DNA from: Massilia sp. METH4
GTDB lineage: Bacteria; Pseudomonadota; Gammaproteobacteria; Burkholderiales; Burkholderiaceae_D
Direction: 5' to 3'
Length of the DNA: 64,000 nucleotides
Assembly: GCF_037094685.1 (NCBI RefSeq)
Contig: NZ_CP146614.1
Coordinates: 1,302,001 to 1,366,000, forward strand
The translations under genes and the position numbers were made by a program. Positions within the stretch are counted from its first letter, which is position 1; each line of letters opens with the position of its first letter. This document shows positions 10,265 to 42,950 of the stretch, in pieces. The notes beneath the pieces are model-generated. The model ran no database searches. It saw only the letters and a program-made list of their open reading frames with translations, and had not been told where the DNA came from.

Positions 10265-10375
10265 GGCAATTCTCTGCGGGAAATCAATCTGGTCATTATA
10301 GAGGCTAATGCGAATGGTTTGTATTTGCAGGTAACGCTTGCATTGTACGCGCTCTTGAGTCAAAATAGGAACCGT

Positions 10376-10394
10376 AATGATAATGATTCTCATT
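10376..10394. promoter_or_regulatory. Fur box between feoA and bfd
   Basis: AATGATAATGATTCTCATT is the best Fur-box match in the window. It lies about 110 bases before feoA and 130 bases before bfd, between divergent promoters, so one site could control both iron uptake through Feo and the bfd-tonB operon. Confidence 0.85.
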
Positions 10395-10526
10395 AAGAAA
10401 GCGGCAAGATTGGCAGAGTAGCTACCCCTTCCGGTCTTCCTTCCGGCCCTGCCGGTTCTTCTTGATGAGCCGCCCTTGGCGGTACCCTAGTTTCCGTTTG
10501 TGTTTTCTCAGCCAGAAGGTGTTTCA

Positions 10527-10736
10527 ATGATCGTCTGCGTTTGCAACAACATCTCCGATCGCGAAATCCGTCAAGCCATTGACCTTGGTATCAGCACCAT
10601 GGACGGGCTGCGCGAGGCACTGGGTGTTTCCACGTGCTGTGGCAACTGCCTGGACTATGCCGTCGAAGTGCTGAACGAACACGTGGCAGCGCCGATCCAG
10701 GAAACGGTCCTGAAGCGCCCCACCCTCACTTCCTGA
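10527..10736 (+). CDS. bfd: Bacterioferritin-associated ferredoxin (Bfd)
   Basis: A 69-residue [2Fe-2S] protein beginning MIVCVCNNISDREIRQAI, with the second cysteine pair in VSTCCGNCLDYAVE. The spacing CxC plus CxxC and the helix-turn-helix-like fold are those of the BFD/Fer2 family. Bfd delivers electrons to bacterioferritin to release stored iron during starvation. An AGAAGG ribosome site supports the start at 10527 rather than the longer frame. It is probably co-transcribed with tonB eight bases downstream, and bacterioferritin is encoded 4 kb away. Confidence 0.93.
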   Translation: MIVCVCNNISDREIRQAIDLGISTMDGLREALGVSTCCGNCLDYAVEVLNEHVAAPIQETVLKRPTLTS

Positions 10737-10744
10737 GGATACTC

Positions 10745-11515
10745 ATGCAAACACTGCCCGGCCTTTCCCGGCCTGGCGTGTCGCGGCTCGGGCTGAATCT
10801 GAGCCTGCCCCGACTTACGTCCACACCTCCCGCCGCGCCCACTGAAGCGGCCATAGCGGCGGCCCCCGATTTCACCCTTGGCAGCAGCCGGAGCAAGACC
10901 GGCAAGATCGCCGTCATCGTCGCCCTCCACCTCGCCGCCGTCTGGGCCATGAAGGATGGCATGGTGTACCTGCCCAAGGAATTGCCGCGTGTCGTCGACG
11001 TGACCTTCGTGACGCCGCCCGCGCCGCCGGCCCCGCCCGCGCCGCCGAAAGTGGTGGAAGTGGCCATCAAGCCGCCCCCTGTCTTTACGCCCGAAATCCC
11101 GCAGCTGCCCGTCGTGATCGAGAACACGATCACCGTGCCGCCGGCACCGGTGAAGCCGGCCGAAGCCGCGCCGGTCGTGGCCGCCCCGCCCGCGCCGCCG
11201 GCCCCGCCCGTGGCCGCCCCGCCGGAGCCGGCCGCGCCGAAGCTCGTGCAGGGTGTCGAGTACGTGCGGCCACCGCAGCCTGTCTATCCGTCGATTTCCA
11301 GGCGCCTGGGCGAGACGGGCGTCGTGACCTTGCGCGTGCTCGTCAGCGAGAAAGGCACGCCGGAGCAGGCGACAGTGCACAAGACCTCCGGCTCGCAGAA
11401 CCTGGACGAAGCCGGCCGCACGGCCGCCATGCGCAGCCTGTTCAAGCCTTATATGGAAGATGGCAAGGCGGTGCCGGTGTATGTGCTGGTGCCGATCAAT
11501 TTCAAGCTGTCGTAA
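10745..11515 (+). CDS. tonB: Energy transducer TonB
   Basis: A 256-residue protein. An unusually long cytoplasmic N terminus of about 53 residues precedes the single membrane helix (KIAVIVALHLAAVWAM, about 54-69). A Pro/Ala-rich periplasmic rod follows (about 90-185, many PPAPPAPP and VAAPP units). The TonB C-terminal domain is at about 190-256, with YVRPPQPVYPSISRRLGE, then SSG-like KTSGSQNLDEAG and a final VPINFKLS. It carries proton-motive-force energy to the outer-membrane receptors. No exbB or exbD follows, so these partners must lie elsewhere. The start at 10745 has GAGG seven bases upstream, eight bases after bfd. Confidence 0.93.
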   Translation: MQTLPGLSRPGVSRLGLNLSLPRLTSTPPAAPTEAAIAAAPDFTLGSSRSKTGKIAVIVALHLAAVWAMKDGMVYLPKELPRVVDVTFVTPPAPPAPPAPPKVVEVAIKPPPVFTPEIPQLPVVIENTITVPPAPVKPAEAAPVVAAPPAPPAPPVAAPPEPAAPKLVQGVEYVRPPQPVYPSISRRLGETGVVTLRVLVSEKGTPEQATVHKTSGSQNLDEAGRTAAMRSLFKPYMEDGKAVPVYVLVPINFKLS

Positions 11516-11528
11516 GCGGCGGCGCGAT

Positions 11529-11571
11529 GAAAAAACGGGGACGGGCCTGGCGGCCTGTCCCCGTTTTTTTG
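11529..11571. terminator. Long bidirectional terminator after tonB
   Basis: A run of As, then ACGGGGACGGGCC-TGGC-GGCCTGTCCCCGT, then seven Ts. The symmetric A and T flanks let it work for tonB on the plus strand and for the piuC operon on the minus strand. Confidence 0.85.
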
Positions 11572-11592
11572 TCCAACTGGCGCCGAAGCGTC

Positions 11593-11695
11593 GGTGTCGG
11601 ACATATTTTCCGGGCGCTTCATCCGGAAAATGTGTCCGACACCGGTGGTCGGGCGGCGTTCTCGCCTCTTCAGGGGAACACCGGTGTCGGACACC
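11593..11695. repeat. Hairpin repeat with core GGTGTCGGACACC
   Basis: A 21-bp stem (11593-11613 with 11623-11643) that begins GGTGTCGGACATATTTTCC and returns as its reverse complement with one G-T mismatch. A free palindrome GGTGTCGGACACC follows at 11683-11695. The arrangement between convergent genes and the repeated core word resemble the other twin-hairpin elements of the window. Confidence 0.8.
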
Positions 11696-11717
11696 AAGAG
11701 ACCAGCGCAGGCGGATC

Positions 11718-12398
11718 TTACGTCTCCGCCCACATCCGCAACAGGTTGTGATAATGCCCCGTCAACCCCACGGTGGCCTGGCTGTCGCCATGCGCGGCGC
11801 GCACGGCCTGGATGTTCTGGTCCAGCTCGAACAGCATCGTGCGCTTCCAGTCGTCGCGCACCATGCTCTGCGTCCACAGGAACGAGGCAAGGCGTTCGCC
11901 GCGCGTCACCGGTTCCACACGATGCACCGTCGTCGACGGGTACAGGACCGCGTCGCCGGCCGGCAGCTTCACTTCATGCGTGCCGTAGGCGTCGGTGACG
12001 ATCAGCTCGCCGCCGTCATACTCGTCCGGATCGGACAGGAACACGGTGGTCGACACGTCCGCCCGCAGCGGCGCGGCGCCAGGCGATGCCACGCGGATGG
12101 CGCCGTCGATGTGGTCGCCATACGTTTCGCCACCGGCATAGCCGTTGAAGTAAGGCGGCAGGATGCGCAGCGGCAGCGCCGCCGCGAAGAACAGCGGGTT
12201 GGCCGTCAGCGCACGGGCGACGATGTTGCCCAGCTCGACGGCCAATGGCGAACCTTCCGCCAACTGGCGATTGCGCTTGACTGCCGCCCCCTGCGAACCG
12301 ACGCTCGCGCGCCCGTCGACCCAGTCCGCCTGGTCCAGGCGGCCGCGGAATTGCCGGACTTGCTCAGGCGTCAGCACGCCGGGGATGTGCAGTATCAC
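11718..12398 (-). CDS. piuC: Fe(II)/2-oxoglutarate-dependent dioxygenase, PKHD/PiuC type
   Basis: A 226-residue PKHD-type hydroxylase like E. coli YbiX and Pseudomonas PiuC. It starts [17 protein letters not shown]. The iron-binding facial triad is visible as HID in [10 protein letters not shown] and the later His in STTVHRVEP, followed by an Arg for 2-oxoglutarate in [14 protein letters not shown] at 12398 with AAGGAG six bases upstream gives exactly the family length. It lies 11 bases after the Fiu-like receptor gene, the same pairing as fiu-ybiX and piuA-piuC. The substrate is not known; a role in siderophore handling is inferred from that linkage. Confidence 0.9.
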
Positions 12399-12409
12399 GC
12401 AAGGCTCCT

Positions 12410-14722
12410 TTAGTACTTGAAGCTGGCGGTCAGCGATGCGCTGCGGCCGGCGCCCACGCCCGCATAGTGCGGCGAGGACACCTTGTCGAAGTACAGCTTG
12501 TCGGCCAGGTTCTGCACGTTCAGCTGCAGGCTCACGTTCTTGTTGAGCGTGTAGCTGGCCATCGCGTCGAAGCGGGTATAGCCCGGCGCCCACTTGTTGT
12601 TGTTGACGTTGGCGTACACCTTCGACATCGACGTGGCGCCGCCACCGATCGTCAGGTTCGGCAGCACGGCATAGGTGGTCCACAGCGAGGCGCTGTGCTT
12701 CGGCGTGGTCGGGAATACGTTGCCGTTGTAGGGCGACGGCGCGTAGACCGGCTTGGCGGTGGTGCCGGTGTTGACATAGCCGTTGTCATCCACACGACCG
12801 TCCAGCCACGTGTAGCCGCCGAAGACCTGCCAGGCGTTCGTGATGTTGCCCGTGGCGCCCACTTCGAAGCCACGCACGCTCTTCTTACCCACGTTCTGCG
12901 TGGTACCGTCCGGCGCCGTCACGCGCGCATTGTTCATGTCGCTCTTGAAGATCGCGGCGGACAGCGACAGGCGGCGCGCCAGCACTTCCCACTTCGTGCC
13001 CAGCTCCCAGTTCTTGCTCTCTTGCGGCTTCAGGTTCTGGATCGCCACGGTCAGGCCGTCCAGGCCGTCGCCGGCATCGTTGCCCGGCGGGGTCGACGAG
13101 GTGGCGTAGGACAGGTAGACGCTGCTGTTGGCGGCCGGCTTGTACACCACGCCGGCCTGGTAGTTGGCGAAGGTGGACTTCACTTCAGCGTGCGAAGCGG
13201 CGGTGGTGGTACCGTTCAGCGTGTACTGCGGCACGTCCAGCACGGAGCGATAGTCATCCCAGCGCACACCCAGGTTCACCAGCCACTGCGGCGTGAATTC
13301 GAGGGTGTCGAACACGTAGGCGCCACGGGTGTTGGTCTTCACATTGGTCACCGCCGGCGACAGGGCACGGCTGTAATTCCACGGGTCGTCCGGATTCGGG
13401 TTGACCACCGTGGTGCAGTTGTACAGCGTTTCGGCGCCCGCCGTCGGGCAGGTGAAGGTCTTCGTCAGCGGGTTGTTGGTGCCCGGCGTGAAGATGTACG
13501 AGCTGCGCTCGGTTTCCTCGCGCGAGAACTCGATGCCGGCACTGAAGTTGTGCTTGATGGTGCCGGTGCGCACCTCGCCGGACAGCGCGGTGGTATTGGC
13601 CAGCGTGTCGGTCTCGGTGACGCGCGAGTTCGCGCGGCGCCATACGGTGCCGTACAACACCACGTTACCCTTCGAATCGTCCGGCTGGGTCCACACATAA
13701 TCCTGGCTGGTCTTGCCGTAGCGCGTCACGTTGCGCAAGGTCAGGCCGTTACCGAAGTCGTGCTTGACGTCGACGGTGCCGATATCGGTTTCAGTGTCGC
13801 GGAAGTCGCGGTTGGTCAAGCCATAGAACGTGTCGCGCGGCACGGAGAGCGGCGTGCCGTTGCCGTTCCTGGCCACATTGGCGCCGGTGCTGAACGGGTT
13901 GTTGAACGGGATGCCGGTATCGGGCAGCTCGCTCGATTCCATGTGGTAGTAGGACAGGTTGACCTTGGTCGGGCCGGACAGGCCGAAGCCGATCGACGGC
14001 GCGATGCCCCAGCGGTCGCCGCCCACTGGGCCGCGGCCGGCCACGTCGGCCTCGAAGCCCATCAGCGCCACGCGGAAGGCGGAATCGCTGCCCAGCGTGC
14101 GGTTCACGTCGGCCGTTACGCGCTTGTAGTTGTCGGTGCCGAAGCCAACGGTGGCGTTGTAGAAGTTGTCGAGCTTGGGCGTCTTCGACACCATGTTCAG
14201 GCCGCCACCGGCGGAGGAACGGCCGCCGTAGGCGGAATTCGGGCCCTTCACGACTTCCACCTGCTCGAGCGCGAACACTTCGCGCGATTGCGAGCCGCTG
14301 TCGCGGATGCCGTCGATATACGTATCGGTCTGGGCGTTGTAGCCGCGGATGAACAGGTTATCGCCGACCGGGTTGCCGCCTTCGGCGGCGCCGATGGTGA
14401 TGCCGGGCACGGTGCGCAACGCATCGGCCAGCGACGTGGCGCCGGTTTGCGCGATCACCTCGCTCGGGATCACGGTGACGGATTTCGGCGAATCGAGCAG
14501 GGGGACGGTGAACTTGTCGGACGCGGAGCGCTGCGGGATCTCGAACTGGTTGCCCTTGTTGTGGCCGGCGACGGTCACTTCCGGGATCTTCTGGTCGCCC
14601 TGGGTGGCGACGGGGGCGTTGGCTTCCGCGGGATCGGCGGCGTGAACGACGAAAGGCATTGCGAGTGTTGCGACGGCGGCGAGCGCCGCTGGCCCGTGCT
14701 TGCGGCTCTTAATGTACGACAT
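12410..14722 (-). CDS. fiu: TonB-dependent catecholate siderophore receptor, Fiu/PiuA-like
   Basis: A 770-residue outer-membrane receptor. A signal peptide follows [10 protein letters not shown] and ends near FVVHAADP. A TonB-box-like PEVTVAG is at about 50. The plug has [28 protein letters not shown] and [20 protein letters not shown]. The barrel ends LTASFKY, with an aromatic last residue. Linkage to the PiuC-type dioxygenase supports the Fiu/PiuA assignment, whose ligands are catechol-type iron complexes. The start at 14722 has AAGG six bases upstream; an ATG six bases earlier has no such site. A Fur-like box lies about 35 bases upstream. Confidence 0.9.
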
Positions 14723-36610: not shown

Positions 36611-36711
36611 AGCGCCTAACAAAACCCCCATGGCTGCGTTGCAACGTCTCGCCGTACAGGTGTACTGTCTTCGACGCCGCGCCTTGCCCTGCGGGTTTTG
36701 TTAGGCACTCT
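36609..36711. repeat. 103-bp inverted-repeat element between convergent genes
   Basis: Terminal arms AGAG[C/T]GCCTAACAAAACCC (19 bp with one mismatch) face each other. An inner palindrome GTACA-GG-TGTAC lies at 36654-36665. The arms overlap the stop codon of the YkgJ gene at one side and of the FecA-like receptor at the other. The size and ends suggest a MITE-like or ERIC-like repeat that can also fold as a bidirectional terminator. Confidence 0.8.
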
Positions 36712-38786
36712 TAGAAGGTTACCCGCGCCTGCACGTAGGCCGTGCGCGGGGCGCCCACCATGCGCCCGGCATTGCCATCCACATTGCGCGTGTAGTAGCG
36801 CTTGTCGGCGAGGTTGTTCATGCCGGCCAGCAGTTGCACGCCGGGCTTGCCCGGCAATTTCCAGCCCACCTGAGCGTTGACGGTGCCGAAGCCGGGAATG
36901 CGCCCCACGCCGCCGTTGGCCGACTCGGCGACGGTGTTTTCCGCATCCGAGAATTGCTTGCCCTGCGCCGTGCCCGACAGGCTGGCGGAGAACCGGCCGA
37001 TCTCGTAGCGGGCGCCGATGGTGCCGGTGCGGCGCGCGTAGAACGGCACGTCCAGTCCGGCCGTGGCGCCCGATTCCTGGATCGCCTTCGTGTAATTCCA
37101 GTTGGCGTAGGCGGACAAGCCTTCCAGCACGCCGGCGAAACGGTAGTCGACGGCCGTCTCGATGCCTTCGTGCTCCGTGGCGCCGATGTTGCGGAACACG
37201 GGCGGGTTACTGCCCGGCACTTGCAGGATCTGGTTGTCGAAGCGCAGGCGATACAGCGTGGCCTCGGCGGTCAAGCCGTTCGCCTTCCAGCGCGCGCCCA
37301 GTTCCACCGTCCTGGCCAGTTCCGGCTTCAGCGGATTGGCCGCGGTCTGGGAATTCAGCTGGGTGTTCTGCACCGGGCCGAACGAGGTGCCGTAGTTGCC
37401 GAACACGGTCAGCGCGGGCGTGGCCAGGTAGGCCACGTTCAGCGACGGCAGCGCCTTGTCGTTGGACGTGTCGAACGCGCGCTTATCGCTGCGTTCGGCG
37501 CGCTCTGTGCGCCGGGAATCGATCTTCTCGAAGCGCACGCCTGGCGTGATGCGCCAGGCGCCATAGGCGATGCGGTCGTCCACGTAAATGGCGTGGGCGT
37601 CGGTTTCATTGTCGAAGGTGGTGACGGCGCCCTGCGCGCCGGTCGCCACGGCGACCGTGTAGTTGTTGTCGTCGCCGCGCTCGCGCAGGTAGCGGTAGCC
37701 GGCCGTGATGTCGTGCGTGGTGGCGCCCCATTGCACGCGCTGCGTGTAGCGCGGCTCGATGCCCAGCACCTGGTAGTTGCGCGGCTGGACGGTGTTAGAC
37801 GTGCGCGCCGCATTGATCAGCGAGCTGCGGCGCTCGCTCTCGTTGTAGTACACCTTCACTTCCACTTCCTGCGTAGCCGACAGCGTGTTCAGGTAGCCCA
37901 GGTCGATGCCCTTGCGCTGGCCATCCCAGAAGTCGGTCGGGCGCGTGTTCTGGAACGGGTCGGCGCCGTACTGGGCCACGGTCAGGCCGCCGGGCGTCAT
38001 CGACTTCACGTCGTAGTAGGACAGTTTGCCGTACACCTGTGCCGTGGGGCTCAGGAGATAGCGCCACTTCAGCGCGAAGTCGTTTACTTTCTCGTCGCTG
38101 CCGGCGCGCCAGGTCGTGCCGTCGATGCCCGAGTACAGCAGCGCCAGGCCGAAGCCGTTGTCCAGCTGGGTGCCGAGGAAGGCGCTGTACTGCGTGCTGT
38201 GGCCGCCCTCGCCGAAGTCCGTGTAGCGGAGCGACGCGTCGCCCGCGACACCCGGCGCATCGGGGATCGACCGGCTGGTGAAGTTGATGATGCCGCCCAC
38301 GTTCTGCGGGCCATAGCGCACCGCGCCGCCGCCGCGCACCACGTCGATGGCTTCGATATTGTTCAGGCTCACGGGCGCGAACGACAAATGCGGCTGGCCG
38401 TAAGGCGCGACCGCCAGCGGCACGCCGTCCAGCAGCACCGTGGAGCGCGGCGAATAGCGCCCGGTCAGCCCGCGCACGCCGATGTTCAGCGAAATCGCGC
38501 TGCCGGCGGTGCCCGAGTTGTCCGTTGCCTGCACGCCGGGAATGCGGCGCATCACGTCGCCGATGCTCGAGGCGCCGGTTGCTTCGATGTCTTCCTTCTG
38601 CACCACGGTGCGCGCACCGGCAAAGTTCTTGACGCTGTTCTGCAGGCCCGAACCGAGCCAGTTGCCGGTGACGGTCACGGTTTCCAGCGGCTCGTTCGCT
38701 TCCTGGGCGAGCGCTGGGTGCGAAGAGGCGAAGGCGGCGCACACAGCCAGGGCGCCGCGGGTGAGGTGGAAGCGTTGGACAGGCAT
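36711..38786 (-). CDS. TonB-dependent receptor, FecA-like
   Basis: A 691-residue outer-membrane receptor. A signal peptide ends near HPALAQEAN. A TonB box LETVTVTG follows at once, so it lacks the N-terminal signalling domain of true FecA. The plug shows EDIEATGASSIGDVMRRIPGV and VRGLTGRYSPRSTVLLDGVPL. The barrel ends AYVQARVTF. It is closest in style to ferric-dicitrate or ferric-carboxylate receptors. The start at 38786 (MPVQRFHL) was chosen because the signal peptide is then normal; a longer frame exists. A Fur-like box lies 30 bases upstream. Confidence 0.88.
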   Translation of the reverse strand: MPVQRFHLTRGALAVCAAFASSHPALAQEANEPLETVTVTGNWLGSGLQNSVKNFAGARTVVQKEDIEATGASSIGDVMRRIPGVQATDNSGTAGSAISLNIGVRGLTGRYSPRSTVLLDGVPLAVAPYGQPHLSFAPVSLNNIEAIDVVRGGGAVRYGPQNVGGIINFTSRSIPDAPGVAGDASLRYTDFGEGGHSTQYSAFLGTQLDNGFGLALLYSGIDGTTWRAGSDEKVNDFALKWRYLLSPTAQVYGKLSYYDVKSMTPGGLTVAQYGADPFQNTRPTDFWDGQRKGIDLGYLNTLSATQEVEVKVYYNESERRSSLINAARTSNTVQPRNYQVLGIEPRYTQRVQWGATTHDITAGYRYLRERGDDNNYTVAVATGAQGAVTTFDNETDAHAIYVDDRIAYGAWRITPGVRFEKIDSRRTERAERSDKRAFDTSNDKALPSLNVAYLATPALTVFGNYGTSFGPVQNTQLNSQTAANPLKPELARTVELGARWKANGLTAEATLYRLRFDNQILQVPGSNPPVFRNIGATEHEGIETAVDYRFAGVLEGLSAYANWNYTKAIQESGATAGLDVPFYARRTGTIGARYEIGRFSASLSGTAQGKQFSDAENTVAESANGGVGRIPGFGTVNAQVGWKLPGKPGVQLLAGMNNLADKRYYTRNVDGNAGRMVGAPRTAYVQARVTF

Positions 38787-38815
38787 CGGAAGCTCGAAAA
38801 AGTTAAGCAAACGAA

Positions 38816-38834
38816 AATGATAACACTTCTCATT
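38816..38834. promoter_or_regulatory. Fur-box-like site upstream of the FecA-like receptor
   Basis: AATGATAACACTTCTCATT resembles the Fur consensus and the other three sites in the window. It lies between the receptor and the permease stop codon. Confidence 0.75.
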
Positions 38835-38858
38835 TACAAGATCGAGCTGCTGGATGAG

Positions 38859-41264
38859 CTAGTCCTCCTGGCGCAACACCGTTGCCGGCGCCATCCGCAT
38901 CGCCGCCAACGCATGGCGCAGCGTGGCGCCGAACACCGTCAGCGCGCCGACCAGCAAGGCGCCCGGCAATGCCCACCATGCCTGTTGGGTGGCGGCGCTG
39001 AAGCCGGCCAGGTAGCGGGCGATCGCCAGGCCTGCCGGCGGCAAGGCCAGCATGGCCGCCGCCAGCAGCAACAGCGCGAACTCGGTGCCGACCAGCAGCG
39101 CGATGGCGCCGCCGCCCGCGCCGTGCAACTTGCGCAGCGCGATTTCCCGGCCGCGCCGCCGCATGCTGCCGGCCGCCAGCACATAGATACCCGACGCCGC
39201 AATGCCCGTCGCGACCAGCGCGCCCAAGGTCAGCAGGCTGGCGATGCGCCGGTCGTCCGCACTGCCATCCTCGAACACGGCGCGGGCGCGCTGCACCCAC
39301 ACGGGCGGGCCGGGGAAGTAGCGCCGCAGCAGCGGCGCCACCGCCTTTTGCAAATCTTCCGCATCCAGGCCGGCACGCACCATGACCACGTTCGCATTGC
39401 CCTGCTCGACCATGTACACCATTGCCTGCGGCGGCTGGCGCAAGCCCTTGTGGCGCAGCGGCGGAACGATGCCGATCACGCGCAGCGGCACGCTCGCGCC
39501 CATCGCGACGACCTGGCCAACAGCGGCCGCGCCGGAGGCAAATCCAAGGGCGCGCGCCGCCGCCTCGTTGAGCATCACGTCGCCTTTTTGCACCGCAGCT
39601 GGACGGGCGGCATCGAAAGCCCCGCCGGCCATCGGCGCGATGCCCGTCACCGCGAAAAAGCTGGGGCTGACCAGGCTCATCTCGACACGCCGCTCGACGC
39701 CCGCGGGGCCGCGAAACGCCGTACTGCTGCGCACCATCGCATGGCCGAAAGGCAGGTCGATGGCGGCTATGCCCTGCACGCCGGGCACGCGCTCGAGCGC
39801 CGCGAAGAATGACTGGCGGGAATCGACGGTGGCCCCGTCGCGCAGGTGCAGCAGCACGAAATCGTCCAGCGCGAGGCCGGGATCGGCCTGCGCGGCGAAG
39901 CGCGCCTGCCAGCCGATGGCCAGGGCCAGCGCGCACAGTGCGATGGCGGCGGTGAACTGGAATACCGTCAGTATCCGGCGCAGCCACGCGTTGCCGGCCG
40001 GTTCGCTGCCCGCCCTGCCCGCCAGCGCTTGAGCGGGCAGCACGCGCAGCGCCATGCGCGCGGGCCAGATGCCGCAGGCCAGACCCACGGCCAGCCCGAG
40101 CACCAGCGCCACCAGCAGTGACGATGGCGACAGGAAGGCATCCAGCGGGCGGCCCATCAATTCGGAGAACAGGGGCAGCAACAGCCAGGCCAGCAGCATG
40201 CCCAGGGCGGTGGCGCCGAGCGCGACAGCGACCGACTCGGCCACGAACTGCGCGGCGAGCCGCCCGGTGCCGGCGCCAAGCGTCTTGCGGACGGCGATTT
40301 CGCGGCCCCGCGCCAGCACGCCAACGGTGGCGAGATTGACGTAATTGGTGCCGGCAAGCGCGAGGATCAGGAAAGCCAGTGCGGCGAGCGCCAGCACGCG
40401 TGGCTTCGATGCGCGTTCGCCGCCGTGGAACACCGCTACGTCGGTGTCGAAATACGCTTCCGACAGCGGGGTGACGGCCACCTCCACCATCTTGCCACCG
40501 GCACGGCGCATGGCATCGGCTCCGACGGTCGCCGCGACCACGCGGTTCGCTTCCTGCCGCAACGGTGCGGCGAGCGCCTCCGGTTTCACGCCGGGAGCAT
40601 GCGCATACAGCTTGCCGGCCAGGGCCATCCAGTTATGGCGCGCCTTTTCCCGCTCGCCCGGCGCCCACAGCACCGTGCCCTCGCCGACCAGCGCCGTGTA
40701 CGGCAGCGTGGTGTTCGATGGCGGTTCGGGCAACAGCGCCAGCACGCGCAGCACGCGGCCATTGACGTCGACCGTGCGCCCCAGGGCGCCCGCGGTACCG
40801 AACAGGTGCCGCGCCCCGCGCGGCGTGAGCGCCAATCCGTCCGGCCGCGCCAGCGCCGCCGCCAGGTCGCCTGCCGCCGCGTCGACGCCGAACATGGCAG
40901 GGAACGTGGCACTGACCTCGGTGAACGTCATTTCCCGCACTTCGCCATCGGCCTTCACCATTTCCCGGTGCGGTATCGCCGTGCACAGCGTGACCGGCAG
41001 GCCGCTGCGAGCCAGCACATCACGGGCCGGCAGCGGCATCTGCTCGATCCAATGGGGCTGCGCCAGCAGGTGAAGCCTGTGCTTGACCACGTGGACGTTG
41101 CGGTTGTCCGGCACCGTGCTGTCATAGCTGAACGAGTAATGGACGAATGCGAGCAGCAGGAAGGCGGCAGCCAGGCCGATGGCCAGTCCGAGCAGCATGG
41201 TCGCCGTGTGCAGCGGCTGGCGGGCCAGCACGCGCCAGCCGCTGCGGAAGTCGCGCAAGCGCAT
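38859..41264 (-). CDS. ABC transporter permease of the FtsX/MacB type
   Basis: An 801-residue protein with two repeats of MacB-like periplasmic domain plus FtsX domain. The first helix is at about 20-40 (TATMLLGLAIGLAAAFLLLA). The FtsX motifs appear twice: VGVLARGREIAVRKTLGAG with NYVNLATV, and GSMRRRGREIALRKLHGAG near the C terminus. No ATPase gene is adjacent, so the partner must be encoded elsewhere. It lies 72 bases upstream of the FecA-like receptor on the same strand, with a Fur-like site between them. A role in export or in mechano-transmission is possible. A GGAG site precedes the ATG at 41264. Confidence 0.85.
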   Translation of the reverse strand: MRLRDFRSGWRVLARQPLHTATMLLGLAIGLAAAFLLLAFVHYSFSYDSTVPDNRNVHVVKHRLHLLAQPHWIEQMPLPARDVLARSGLPVTLCTAIPHREMVKADGEVREMTFTEVSATFPAMFGVDAAAGDLAAALARPDGLALTPRGARHLFGTAGALGRTVDVNGRVLRVLALLPEPPSNTTLPYTALVGEGTVLWAPGEREKARHNWMALAGKLYAHAPGVKPEALAAPLRQEANRVVAATVGADAMRRAGGKMVEVAVTPLSEAYFDTDVAVFHGGERASKPRVLALAALAFLILALAGTNYVNLATVGVLARGREIAVRKTLGAGTGRLAAQFVAESVAVALGATALGMLLAWLLLPLFSELMGRPLDAFLSPSSLLVALVLGLAVGLACGIWPARMALRVLPAQALAGRAGSEPAGNAWLRRILTVFQFTAAIALCALALAIGWQARFAAQADPGLALDDFVLLHLRDGATVDSRQSFFAALERVPGVQGIAAIDLPFGHAMVRSSTAFRGPAGVERRVEMSLVSPSFFAVTGIAPMAGGAFDAARPAAVQKGDVMLNEAAARALGFASGAAAVGQVVAMGASVPLRVIGIVPPLRHKGLRQPPQAMVYMVEQGNANVVMVRAGLDAEDLQKAVAPLLRRYFPGPPVWVQRARAVFEDGSADDRRIASLLTLGALVATGIAASGIYVLAAGSMRRRGREIALRKLHGAGGGAIALLVGTEFALLLLAAAMLALPPAGLAIARYLAGFSAATQQAWWALPGALLVGALTVFGATLRHALAAMRMAPATVLRQED

Positions 41265-41408
41265 CTTTGTCTCCGTTGTTGTTGGTTCTTGCCAGCGTTG
41301 CAATCATTGTGCCAGTAGTTGTCGCGCCCGCAATGCCGGGCCATGCGTTCGAAGCCGGACAGTTGCGTTGTCCACTTGCGGACACCAAGAGAGTTATACA
41401 TTTGACGC

Positions 41409-41474
41409 ATGGCCAACATCACGAATGAAAAGTTTATTTATGACTGGGACACCCCTATACTGCACTGCATCAAC
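41409..41474 (+). promoter_or_regulatory. Cassette promoter module, copy 1
   Basis: A 66-bp block shared with copies at 41880 and 42556. It has ATCACGAATGAAAAGTTT upstream and CCTATACTGCACTGCA downstream. CTATACT (41455-41461) matches the -10 preferred by the stationary-phase sigma factor RpoS, with no good -35. Block similarity continues a few bases upstream. The block can also be read as a frame M-x-x-ITNEKF. Confidence 0.7.
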
Positions 41475-41497
41475 ATTTATTTTTTCAGGAGTGTGCC

Positions 41498-41740
41498 ATG
41501 TCGACCGTTCTTACTACCCCAGCTACCCGCGGTACCCTGGACAACGTCGGCCGCGCCTTGATGGATTTCGCGAGCAAGATGCTGGCCTTCGCACCGTTCG
41601 CCGCCGCAGCCAGCCATGGCAGCGCATCGCAGGCGTCCACGCTGAGCGAGCGGGAAGCCATTCTCCGTCTTGCCAAGAAATTCGAGACCCTGTCGCCGAA
41701 CCAGGCCGCCGAGTTGCGCAATCTCGCGGGCCGCGACTGA
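41498..41740 (+). CDS. Small cassette protein A, unknown function
   Basis: An 80-residue protein that I do not recognise. It starts MSTVLTTPATRGTLDNVGRALM and has two helix-forming parts: an amphipathic stretch FASKMLAFAPFAAAA at about 24-38 and a C-terminal LSEREAILRLAKKFETLSPNQAAELRNL. It is a paralogue of the protein at 42644-42904: both begin MST, share a following LD..GR..M pattern, and end with a P-x-x-AA-x-LR helix. An AGGAG ribosome site precedes the ATG. The shared promoter module and the terminator make it the first of three cassettes. Confidence 0.75.
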   Translation: MSTVLTTPATRGTLDNVGRALMDFASKMLAFAPFAAAASHGSASQASTLSEREAILRLAKKFETLSPNQAAELRNLAGRD

Positions 41741-41762
41741 TCGCTCCAGCCCCGCAGTGAAA

Positions 41763-41790
41763 GAAGCCGGCTAAGCCGGCTTTTTTATTT
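41763..41790 (+). terminator. Terminator of cassette 1
   Basis: AAGCCGGC-TAA-GCCGGCTT followed by Ts, about 22 bases after the stop. The same stem word recurs after cassettes 2 and 3. Confidence 0.9.
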
Positions 41791-41879
41791 TCCGGACCGT
41801 TTATTTGCATGGCGAGTGGCCATCATGCCGTGACATGATGAAATGCCTTTATTTCCCGCTCAGCTCATTCATCGCGCGT

Positions 41880-41945
41880 ATGGATCACATCACAAACGAA
41901 AAGTTTTGTTATGTCTTCCACCAGCCTATACTGCATTGCAACAAC
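41880..41945 (+). promoter_or_regulatory. Cassette promoter module, copy 2
   Basis: The same 66-bp block as at 41409 and 42556, with ATCACAAACGAAAAGTTT and CCTATACTGCATTGCA at identical spacing. TTCAGGAG follows at 41951, but unlike the other two copies no ATG comes next, and the gene begins about 50 bases further on. Confidence 0.7.
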
Positions 41946-42009
41946 GTTAATTCAGGAGACAACCGCGACAATCCGCGGCCAACTGTCATTAACTTCAAGG
42001 GAAAAAAAA

Positions 42010-42360
42010 ATGATCACGAAACTGTCCGCCAAACACTGCCTTACCCTGGTCGCCACGGTCCTTGTCTCCACCAGCGCCTGTGCCATCGAAGTGCCCGCCA
42101 CGCCGGACACACGCAATTGCAAGGCCGAATATCCGCGCTCTTCGATCGCGAATGAAGAACAAGGCACCGTATCGATGTCGCTGCTCGTTTCGGCCAATGG
42201 CGAAGTGAAGGATTCGCGCCTGAACAAATCCAGCGGCTACAGGACGCTCGATTCCGCGGCAATGCGCAAGATGGCTGCCTGCAGATTCGCGCCGGGCACG
42301 AAGGATGGCGCGCCGGCCGATACCTGGACGCGCGTCGATTACGCCTGGAAGATCGACTGA
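42010..42360 (+). CDS. Small exported protein with a TonB-C-like domain
   Basis: A 116-residue protein. A signal peptide covers about 1-25 (LTLVATVLVSTSACAIE). The mature part reads like the TonB C-terminal fold: AEYPRSSIANEEQGTVSMSLLVSANGEVKDSRL in outline, then NKSSGYRTLDSAAMRKMAACRFAP. It lacks the membrane anchor and Pro-rich rod of TonB. Two cysteines (NCKAEYP and AACRFAP) could pair. It may act as a periplasmic protein-protein adaptor; no energy-transducing role can be claimed. The ATG at 42010 follows GGGAAAAAAAA; a longer frame from 41911 would hide the signal peptide. Confidence 0.78.
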   Translation: MITKLSAKHCLTLVATVLVSTSACAIEVPATPDTRNCKAEYPRSSIANEEQGTVSMSLLVSANGEVKDSRLNKSSGYRTLDSAAMRKMAACRFAPGTKDGAPADTWTRVDYAWKID

Positions 42361-42386
42361 TTCACGAATTTCTGCTTTCCTCGTTG

Positions 42387-42412
42387 AAGCCGGCGATTGC
42401 CGGCTTTTTTTA
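42387..42412 (+). terminator. Terminator of cassette 2
   Basis: AAGCCGGC-GATT-GCCGGCTT followed by Ts, about 27 bases after the stop, with the same stem as in cassettes 1 and 3. Confidence 0.9.
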
Positions 42413-42555
42413 TGGCGTTATTGCCCGATCCGCACGCCGAAACCTTTTGTTTCCACGACAACCGAAGGCTTGCCATATACCGGCAGCGCATTGCCAGTTA
42501 TTCGCCGGCGTTATGATTGATTGCAATGAGGAAACAACAACCATACGTTTTACGT

Positions 42556-42621
42556 ATGGCTCACATCACAAACGAAAAGTTTTTTTATTTCTGCGCGCGC
42601 CCTATACTGCACTGCATCAAC
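42556..42621 (+). promoter_or_regulatory. Cassette promoter module, copy 3
   Basis: The third copy of the 66-bp block, with ATCACAAACGAAAAGTTT and CCTATACTGCACTGCA at the same spacing. The bases just upstream, ATACGTTTTACGT, also resemble the ATACATTTGACGC that precedes copy 1. Confidence 0.7.
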
Positions 42622-42643
42622 GAACAAATTTCAGGAGCTAATC

Positions 42644-42904
42644 ATGTCGACCGCCACCATCACCACCACCGCAGGTTCCCTGGACAGCACCGGCCGTTCC
42701 GTGATGAATTGGCTGCGCTCCCTGCTGCGCACCACGCCGGCCGCACTGGCCGAAGTCCACGGCAGCAAGTCGAAGCAGGAAGAGGAACTGCCGTCGTACT
42801 ACAAGGTCGGTGTGCGCATGGCCCTGCTGCGCCAGGCTGACGCGCTGGAAGCGGAAGCCCCGCACGAAGCGGCCAAGCTGCGTGCCCGCGCCGCCGCGAT
42901 CTGA
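42644..42904 (+). CDS. Small cassette protein B, paralogue of protein A
   Basis: An 86-residue protein of unknown function. It begins MSTATITTTAGSLDSTGRSVM, has a central helix NWLRSLLRTTPAALAEV, and ends in a charged helix VRMALLRQADALEAEAPHEAAKLRARAA. The N-terminal pattern, the P-x-x-AA-x-LR ending, the promoter and the terminator all match cassette 1. A CAGGAG ribosome site precedes the ATG. The similarity of flanks as well as protein points to duplication of a whole cassette. Confidence 0.75.
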   Translation: MSTATITTTAGSLDSTGRSVMNWLRSLLRTTPAALAEVHGSKSKQEEELPSYYKVGVRMALLRQADALEAEAPHEAAKLRARAAAI

Positions 42905-42925
42905 ATTTCGACGCTCGTTGCAAAG

Positions 42926-42950
42926 AAAAGCCGGCATTGCCGGCTTTTTG
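42926..42950 (+). terminator. Terminator of cassette 3
   Basis: AAAGCCGGC-ATT-GCCGGCTTTTT, about 22 bases past the stop codon. The IS1595 relic starts five bases after its T run. Confidence 0.9.

Follow-up and report, generated by a model that had tools for sequence, protein, structure and literature searches.

In Alphaproteobacteria, the LysR-type regulator VtlR activates nutrient-uptake sRNAs together with short proteins of unknown role, according to the accessible portion of its description (PMC7486931). BysR from Burkholderia sp. JP2-270 is a LysR-type regulator of 327 aa with the DAP-seq motif AT-N11-AT (PMC10100970, accessible text), and BsrA from Pseudomonas aeruginosa has a T-N11-A motif and controls the sRNA gene PA1112.1 (PMC8407307, accessible text). 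As far as the available sections of PMC5688073 report, ncS03, ncS05 and ncS27 of B. cenocepacia increase in biofilm, starvation and glucose medium, overexpression of ncS27 slows growth, and an upstream motif is common to three of the four double-hairpin RNAs (ncS03, ncS05, ncS27 and ncS62); these sections name no regulator for the double-hairpin RNAs. Bordetella S17, a relative, has a sigma-70-type promoter and is BvgA-dependent (PMC11722255, in excerpt), so not every relative need share the operator control considered below. Further related literature, likewise in excerpt, comprises NcS25 (PMC10117139), a review of Bcc sRNAs (PMC10987360), PMC4603805 and PMC7011215. No publication joining LysR with RF02278 was found by full-text search, and no title or abstract opening returned by literature searches, with most subscription papers outside their scope, described an array of the present layout in Betaproteobacteria. 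The statement in a preliminary description of the locus that no described system has this layout was nevertheless too strong, since VtlR, in the accessible text of PMC7486931, governs both sRNAs and small proteins in a comparable way.

The window, that is, the whole 64,000-nucleotide stretch of Massilia sp. METH4 DNA under analysis, contains an array that, judged from sequence comparison, probably consists of monocistronic small genes activated by one conserved BsrA/LeuO-like LysR-type regulator (Table 1). Three 79-nt direct repeats start at 41396, 41867 and 42543, the later ones with 72-81% identity to the first, and GAAAAGTTT-N18-CCTATACTGCA stands at equal spacing in all three units. No further copy of this pattern with up to 3 mismatches was found in the 6.88-Mb genome, and the reversed-pattern control gave 0. 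The preliminary description had recognized three cassettes of block, short ORF and hairpin, and all of these elements were found. Its reading of the outer ORFs as paralogues agrees with their 41% identity, and the middle ORF, which it called TonB-C-like, matches Pfam TonB_C (PF03544) with 57.2 bits against a cut-off of 24.6 (E 2.4e-15). The three repeated blocks bear out its single shared promoter module multiplied by duplication, and the coding part has changed under the conserved promoter, as it proposed, with the TonB-C gene in mid-array and several small-protein classes under the block elsewhere. The block length of 66 bp had to be revised, as conservation extends from -76 to roughly +17 relative to the predicted starts.

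Table 1. Features of the three-unit array (positions in the window).
Feature	Position	Strand	Remarks
Unit 1 promoter block (-76 to +17)	41392..41484	+	17-position operator skeleton, 0 mismatches
Unit 1 operator half-sites	AT 41396-41397, AT 41409-41410	+	followed by ATCAC ladder to TTAT
Unit 1 -10 TATACT	41456-41461	+	predicted start 41468
ORF A, 80 aa	41498..41740	+	tail SPNQAAELRNLAGRD; dN/dS 0.10-0.38, 15 pairs
Unit 1 terminator-like hairpin	41764..41786	+	
Unit 2 promoter block	41863..41955	+	0 mismatches; -10 41927-41932; predicted start 41939
Conserved structured leader, TonB-C unit	41946..41993	+	GTTAATTCAGGAGACARCC ... AACTGTCATTAAC; 6/6 TonB-C units compared
TonB_C single-domain protein, 116 aa	42010..42360	+	Pfam; dN/dS 0.11-0.41, 15 pairs
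Unit 2 terminator-like hairpin	42387..42410	+	
Unit 3 promoter block	42539..42631	+	0 mismatches; -10 42603-42608; predicted start 42615
ORF B, 86 aa, ORF A paralogue	42644..42904	+	dN/dS 0.06-0.89, 21 pairs
Unit 3 terminator-like hairpin	42928..42950	+	

The AAGCCGGC form of the hairpin occurs at 9 places genome-wide, 3 of which belong to the array (about 41764, 42387 and 42928), and another hairpin of this type terminates an RF02278 RNA (4548601); the terminator similarity is real, yet adds little on function. A TonB-dependent receptor and an FtsX/MacB-type permease adjoin the array (window 36711-41264), and the receptor cluster was seen at 5 of the 21 compared loci, all with the three-unit array, among the loci listed.

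Alignment of 104 distinct blocks, with identical ones collapsed, outlined the operator; the copies are related rather than independent, and the set excludes L111-L113 as well as blocks with more than 3 mismatches or too near a locus end. A-72 T-71 and A-59 T-58 are invariant in 104/104 copies and lie outside the search pattern, so that every copy has an AT-N11-AT dyad whose centre lies at -65 relative to the predicted start. ATCA at -50, AA at -44 and -38, T-35 and AT at -28 are also invariant, and the whole half-site ladder of ATCA, AA, AA, T and TTAT is invariant or nearly so; because columns -50 to -4 belonged to the search pattern, invariance there is partly selected. A-11, ACT at -9 to -7 and A-4 are likewise invariant, as are A+2 and A+5, the latter two outside the pattern, and variation is greatest between -22 and -15. 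The block contains no TTGACA and no good -35. Covariation within the dyad at the pair -70/-60 amounts to 54 observed against 39 expected, a value that unrelated columns exceed. A dyad of the T-N11-A type centred at -65 is a LysR-type feature, and the layout, as far as the aligned letters can tell, is that of a LysR-type operator with its recognition site at -65 and its activation site at about -50 to -27. An IHF-like reading of AATCAAAAGTTTA by the IHF consensus was discarded, as only some copies fit by eye.

The possibility that the block occurs only at this locus was examined across relatives, and the block proved widespread among them. With up to 3 mismatches it is present in 55/74 same-genus genomes (control 0) and in 52/294 genomes of a family sample, representing 4/44 genera (control 0). 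A stricter pattern matched 13/61 genomes, all of the same genus, and none among 24 genomes from other families, and a pattern scan of genome contigs gave 3 matches, in unrelated metagenome assemblies and not in relatives. By pattern search, most positive genomes hold a single copy; the 7 exceptions in the genus hold three copies (G000, G003, G020, G032 and G068) or two (G071 and G076). A sequence profile built from 67 of the 104 copies matched 310/392 family genomes and 30/44 genera at E 0.01 or better, with rough E-values and many weak matches. Overall, four genera of the family have the block in front of small proteins that evolve fast, and weaker forms are widespread.

Among 29 loci inspected, weak profile matches precede other small ORFs, of which many share the tail motif described below, and in three loci they precede RNAs that Rfam assigns to RF02278, its family of betaproteobacterial toxic sRNA (the double-hairpin RNAs). 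When RF02278 was taken as the starting point, the profile was found directly upstream in 9/20 loci, three of which had originally been found via the profile itself, and was absent in 11/20. In a second set of 20 RF02278 loci, hand-picked from the genome match list, 18 carry 12-15 of the 17 operator positions, in the same register, with the operator beginning 66-73 nt before the RNA start, and the operator is missing upstream of the other two, L263 (10/17) and L273 (9/17). RF02278 sRNAs are abundant, with 3-21 matches each in 23/23 genomes examined; the window's genome has 14 at E 0.01, 6 of which entered the skeleton test, and one more came from the operator scan. That scan found 12 operator sites with up to 3 mismatches genome-wide (control 0 forward, 1 reverse), and the three array units are the only ones with 0 mismatches. 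Among the other nine, 3 precede RF02278 RNAs (one below the gathering score), a fourth falls in the region separating the regulator from its small gene and a fifth precedes a 48-aa ORF; 4/12 sites have no assigned feature. The 48-aa ORF lies behind a 2-mismatch operator (L293 about 1607-1753, G000:C1 near 5662532), and its end resembles that of a 45-aa ORF in G021 (L196), which likewise follows an operator. Considering that the operator is common to the growth-slowing RF02278 sRNAs, the array is tied to a probable nutrient-limitation regulon.

Pairing of the array leaders with RF02278 sRNAs was considered and rejected, since 19/21 pairs fall short of the median strength for 49 control start regions; the remaining two slightly exceed it, and none is near the strongest controls. 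In G262, two RF02278-like matches of 45.9 and 44.5 bits against a gathering score of 50 (L193 975-1036 and 227-289) follow closely, in the same orientation, after the two small genes that the operator drives, so the sRNA may form the 3' part of some small mRNAs.

The candidate regulator was spotted by eye at first, as a divergent LysR-type gene beside the operator-bearing gene in genera with weaker profile matches. A clear best match to it, at 68-100% identity, was found in 18/18 genomes, and G208 holds a second copy at 63%. In 10 genomes (G262, G177, G293, G222, G270, G208, G099, G113, G226 and G101), a profile match divergent from the regulator stands at a distance of 28-296 bp from its aligned start; in G262, G177, G222 and G270 this link was the one first noticed by eye. 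In 8 other genomes, including the window's and G374, the operator between the two genes has 14-17 of 17 positions when read toward the small gene and 10-13 when read toward the regulator, with 17/17 in the G374 region. The profile detects the regulator-side operator in 3 of these 8 skeleton-scored loci, weakly, and gives no match at the regulator at E 0.01 in G374 and G386, which belong to one genus. The tail motif is present in 5/8 of the small proteins divergent from the regulator, nearly so in 2 and absent in 1. An order sample of 150 genomes yielded the regulator at E 1e-70 or better in 13. Of these, 9 lie outside the family, with regulators of 50-61% identity, and a clear divergent operator accompanies 2/9 of the latter, one leading into RF02278. 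G110, a family genome without the regulator, is likewise without a profile match. The best NCBIfam models for the protein are BsrA (NF050187) and LeuO (NF007063), with 226 bits below the cut-off of 480 and 160 bits below that of 262, respectively.

The operator might instead belong to another regulator, with the linked LysR-type gene merely one more target. This is unlikely. In its favour, the LysR-type gene does not stand beside the array in the window's genus (in the window's genome it lies at G000:C1:1825778-1826743, outside the window). Against it stand the divergent LysR-type gene beside the operator in the 10 genomes found by profile and the 8 found by skeleton, and the AT-N11-AT dyad with its -65 centre, both LysR-type features.

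The sigma-S -10 consensus combines TAYRCT, which TATACT fits, with C at -13. On this ground the array might be an RpoS stationary-phase module, read from CTATACT with no special activator. The increase of ncS03, ncS05 and ncS27 in biofilm and starvation (PMC5688073, available sections) would suit this reading, which is nonetheless improbable: TATACT is conserved but suits sigma-70 equally, C-13 is found in only 56/104 copies, and some operator-bearing RF02278 genes have another -10, such as CATAAT (read by eye). A sigma factor alone is insufficient because conservation extends up to -72. What stands of the proposed stationary-phase or stress module is a plausible link to starvation or growth arrest through the sRNAs sharing the operator, for which RpoS is not needed, and activation by the LysR-type regulator remains the preferred reading.

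The ORFs under the 104 blocks, with starts assigned by rule, comprise a family whose members mostly have 73-98 aa, versions of it shortened to 35-39 aa, tiny hydrophobic proteins and proteins of the TonB-C type. Of these ORFs, 69/104 carry the tail P..xAxEL[RK], against 0/339 other proteins of the 21 same-genus loci. ORF A has no Pfam match above the cut-off and no NCBIfam match; its AlphaFold model, with four helical segments, is too weak (mean pLDDT 64.7, pTM 0.37) to support a fold search. The TonB_C protein has, by eye, an N-terminus resembling a signal peptide. Its leader is almost perfectly conserved, folds into a closed stem whose tip varies (z -2.1 for the window's copy), and could be a cis-regulatory RNA; it has no Rfam match, and the stem is without covariation support because its outer pairs are invariant. 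A match to sX6 in unit 3 (24 bits, gathering score 40) was set aside as chance, being absent from nine related loci.

Considering that the operator is common to RF02278 sRNAs, that the transcripts are short and that the cargo often changes, the units might be sRNA genes whose functional product is RNA, with incidental ORFs. This is very improbable, since by pairwise dN/dS (with synonymous sites partly saturated), which is 0.10-0.38 in ORF A, 0.11-0.41 in the TonB-C ORF and 0.06-0.89 in ORF B, the ORFs look translated and also constrained, with B the least constrained. Shine-Dalgarno-like sequences seen by eye before the start codons also speak against it, and within the window no match to the Rfam covariance models, RF02278 included, reached the gathering score.

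Among the loci listed, 21 same-genus loci (20 fetched plus the window) share one syntenic neighbourhood, with an amino-acid permease (20 proteins in the cluster) and an S9 peptidase (11) as partners; L066 is without the permease side. In three other genera the neighbourhood is different, and the block and small ORF are still there. Mean block identity is 0.74 for the same unit across species and 0.65 for other units within a genome, and the nearest neighbour is the same unit for 18/19 blocks, the exception being AG071. Since a block is thus closest to its counterpart in other species, the duplication is old and has not been homogenised. A mobile, integron- or transposon-like cassette array spreading the block, as the repeated block and varying cargo might suggest, is scarcely credible against this shared neighbourhood and unit-specific kinship.

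Among the loci listed, a HAMP-GGDEF diguanylate cyclase gene often lies divergent from the block (L060-L065, L067-L069 and other same-genus loci), hinting at a c-di-GMP link, and an FtsX-type permease replaces it in 6/7 multi-copy genomes, G076 being the exception. Its reading as a two-component kinase or cognate regulator was dropped, the domains being HAMP-GGDEF in 3/3 tested, and the neighbour was rejected because it is missing at the block-bearing loci L056-L058 and L066. Riboswitches above gathering score near block loci were a c-di-GMP-I (L101 7311-7399) and a guanidine-II (L188 995-1041). G121 has nine profile matches, two of which (L182 and L189) stand ahead of identical 48-aa ORFs. 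A block-driven small gene at L102 adjoins a tandem row of five ORFs, each 231-239 aa long (10349-13959), and the three listed starts read GWWNAPDNP.

For the favoured LysR-type activation, a regulator tetramer would bind the recognition and activation sites and recruit sigma-70 polymerase. This would yield the small proteins together with the anti-Shine-Dalgarno, growth-slowing sRNAs, probably at nutrient limitation. An ancestral single target, composed of promoter, small ORF and terminator, was probably duplicated in place in one clade, and the TonB-C gene recruited under the middle copy. On balance, although with less assurance than the activation itself, the whole can be viewed as a counterpart, in Betaproteobacteria, to the VtlR circuit, in which one LysR-type regulator, present in all family genomes sought but one, co-activates RF02278 sRNAs and small proteins with P-x-x-AAELR tails, and in which this clade tripled one target and captured a TonB-C gene with its own structured leader. 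If so, a regulator would be named behind the shared upstream motif of the 'toxic' sRNAs, and the small proteins would be protein partners in an sRNA-led shutdown of nutrient uptake. A candidate regulator, a base-readable operator and a short target list make control of RF02278 directly testable, and the operator gives regulatory context to a family of small proteins that match neither Pfam nor NCBIfam.

Compared with known systems, the closest analogue, in the accessible text of PMC7486931, is the VtlR/LsrB regulon of AbcR/VrsA sRNAs and small proteins, which likewise has one conserved LysR-type activator. It differs in its proposed VtlR box, GCAT-N3-TG-N3-T as against AT-N11-AT here, and RF02278 is a different sRNA family, with BsrA and LeuO, both below cut-off, as the best models of the present regulator. 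BsrA resembles the latter as its best NCBIfam model, in its T-N11-A motif and in having an sRNA target (PMC8407307, accessible text), but by the score test the regulator is not a member of the BsrA family. BysR shares the AT-N11-AT motif, by which alone the two were compared, and differs in that a term search of the text of PMC10100970 found neither small proteins nor sRNAs. Like the array, the RF02278 genes inspected have the operator upstream; unlike the double-hairpin RNAs ncS03, ncS05, ncS27 and ncS62, the array encodes proteins.
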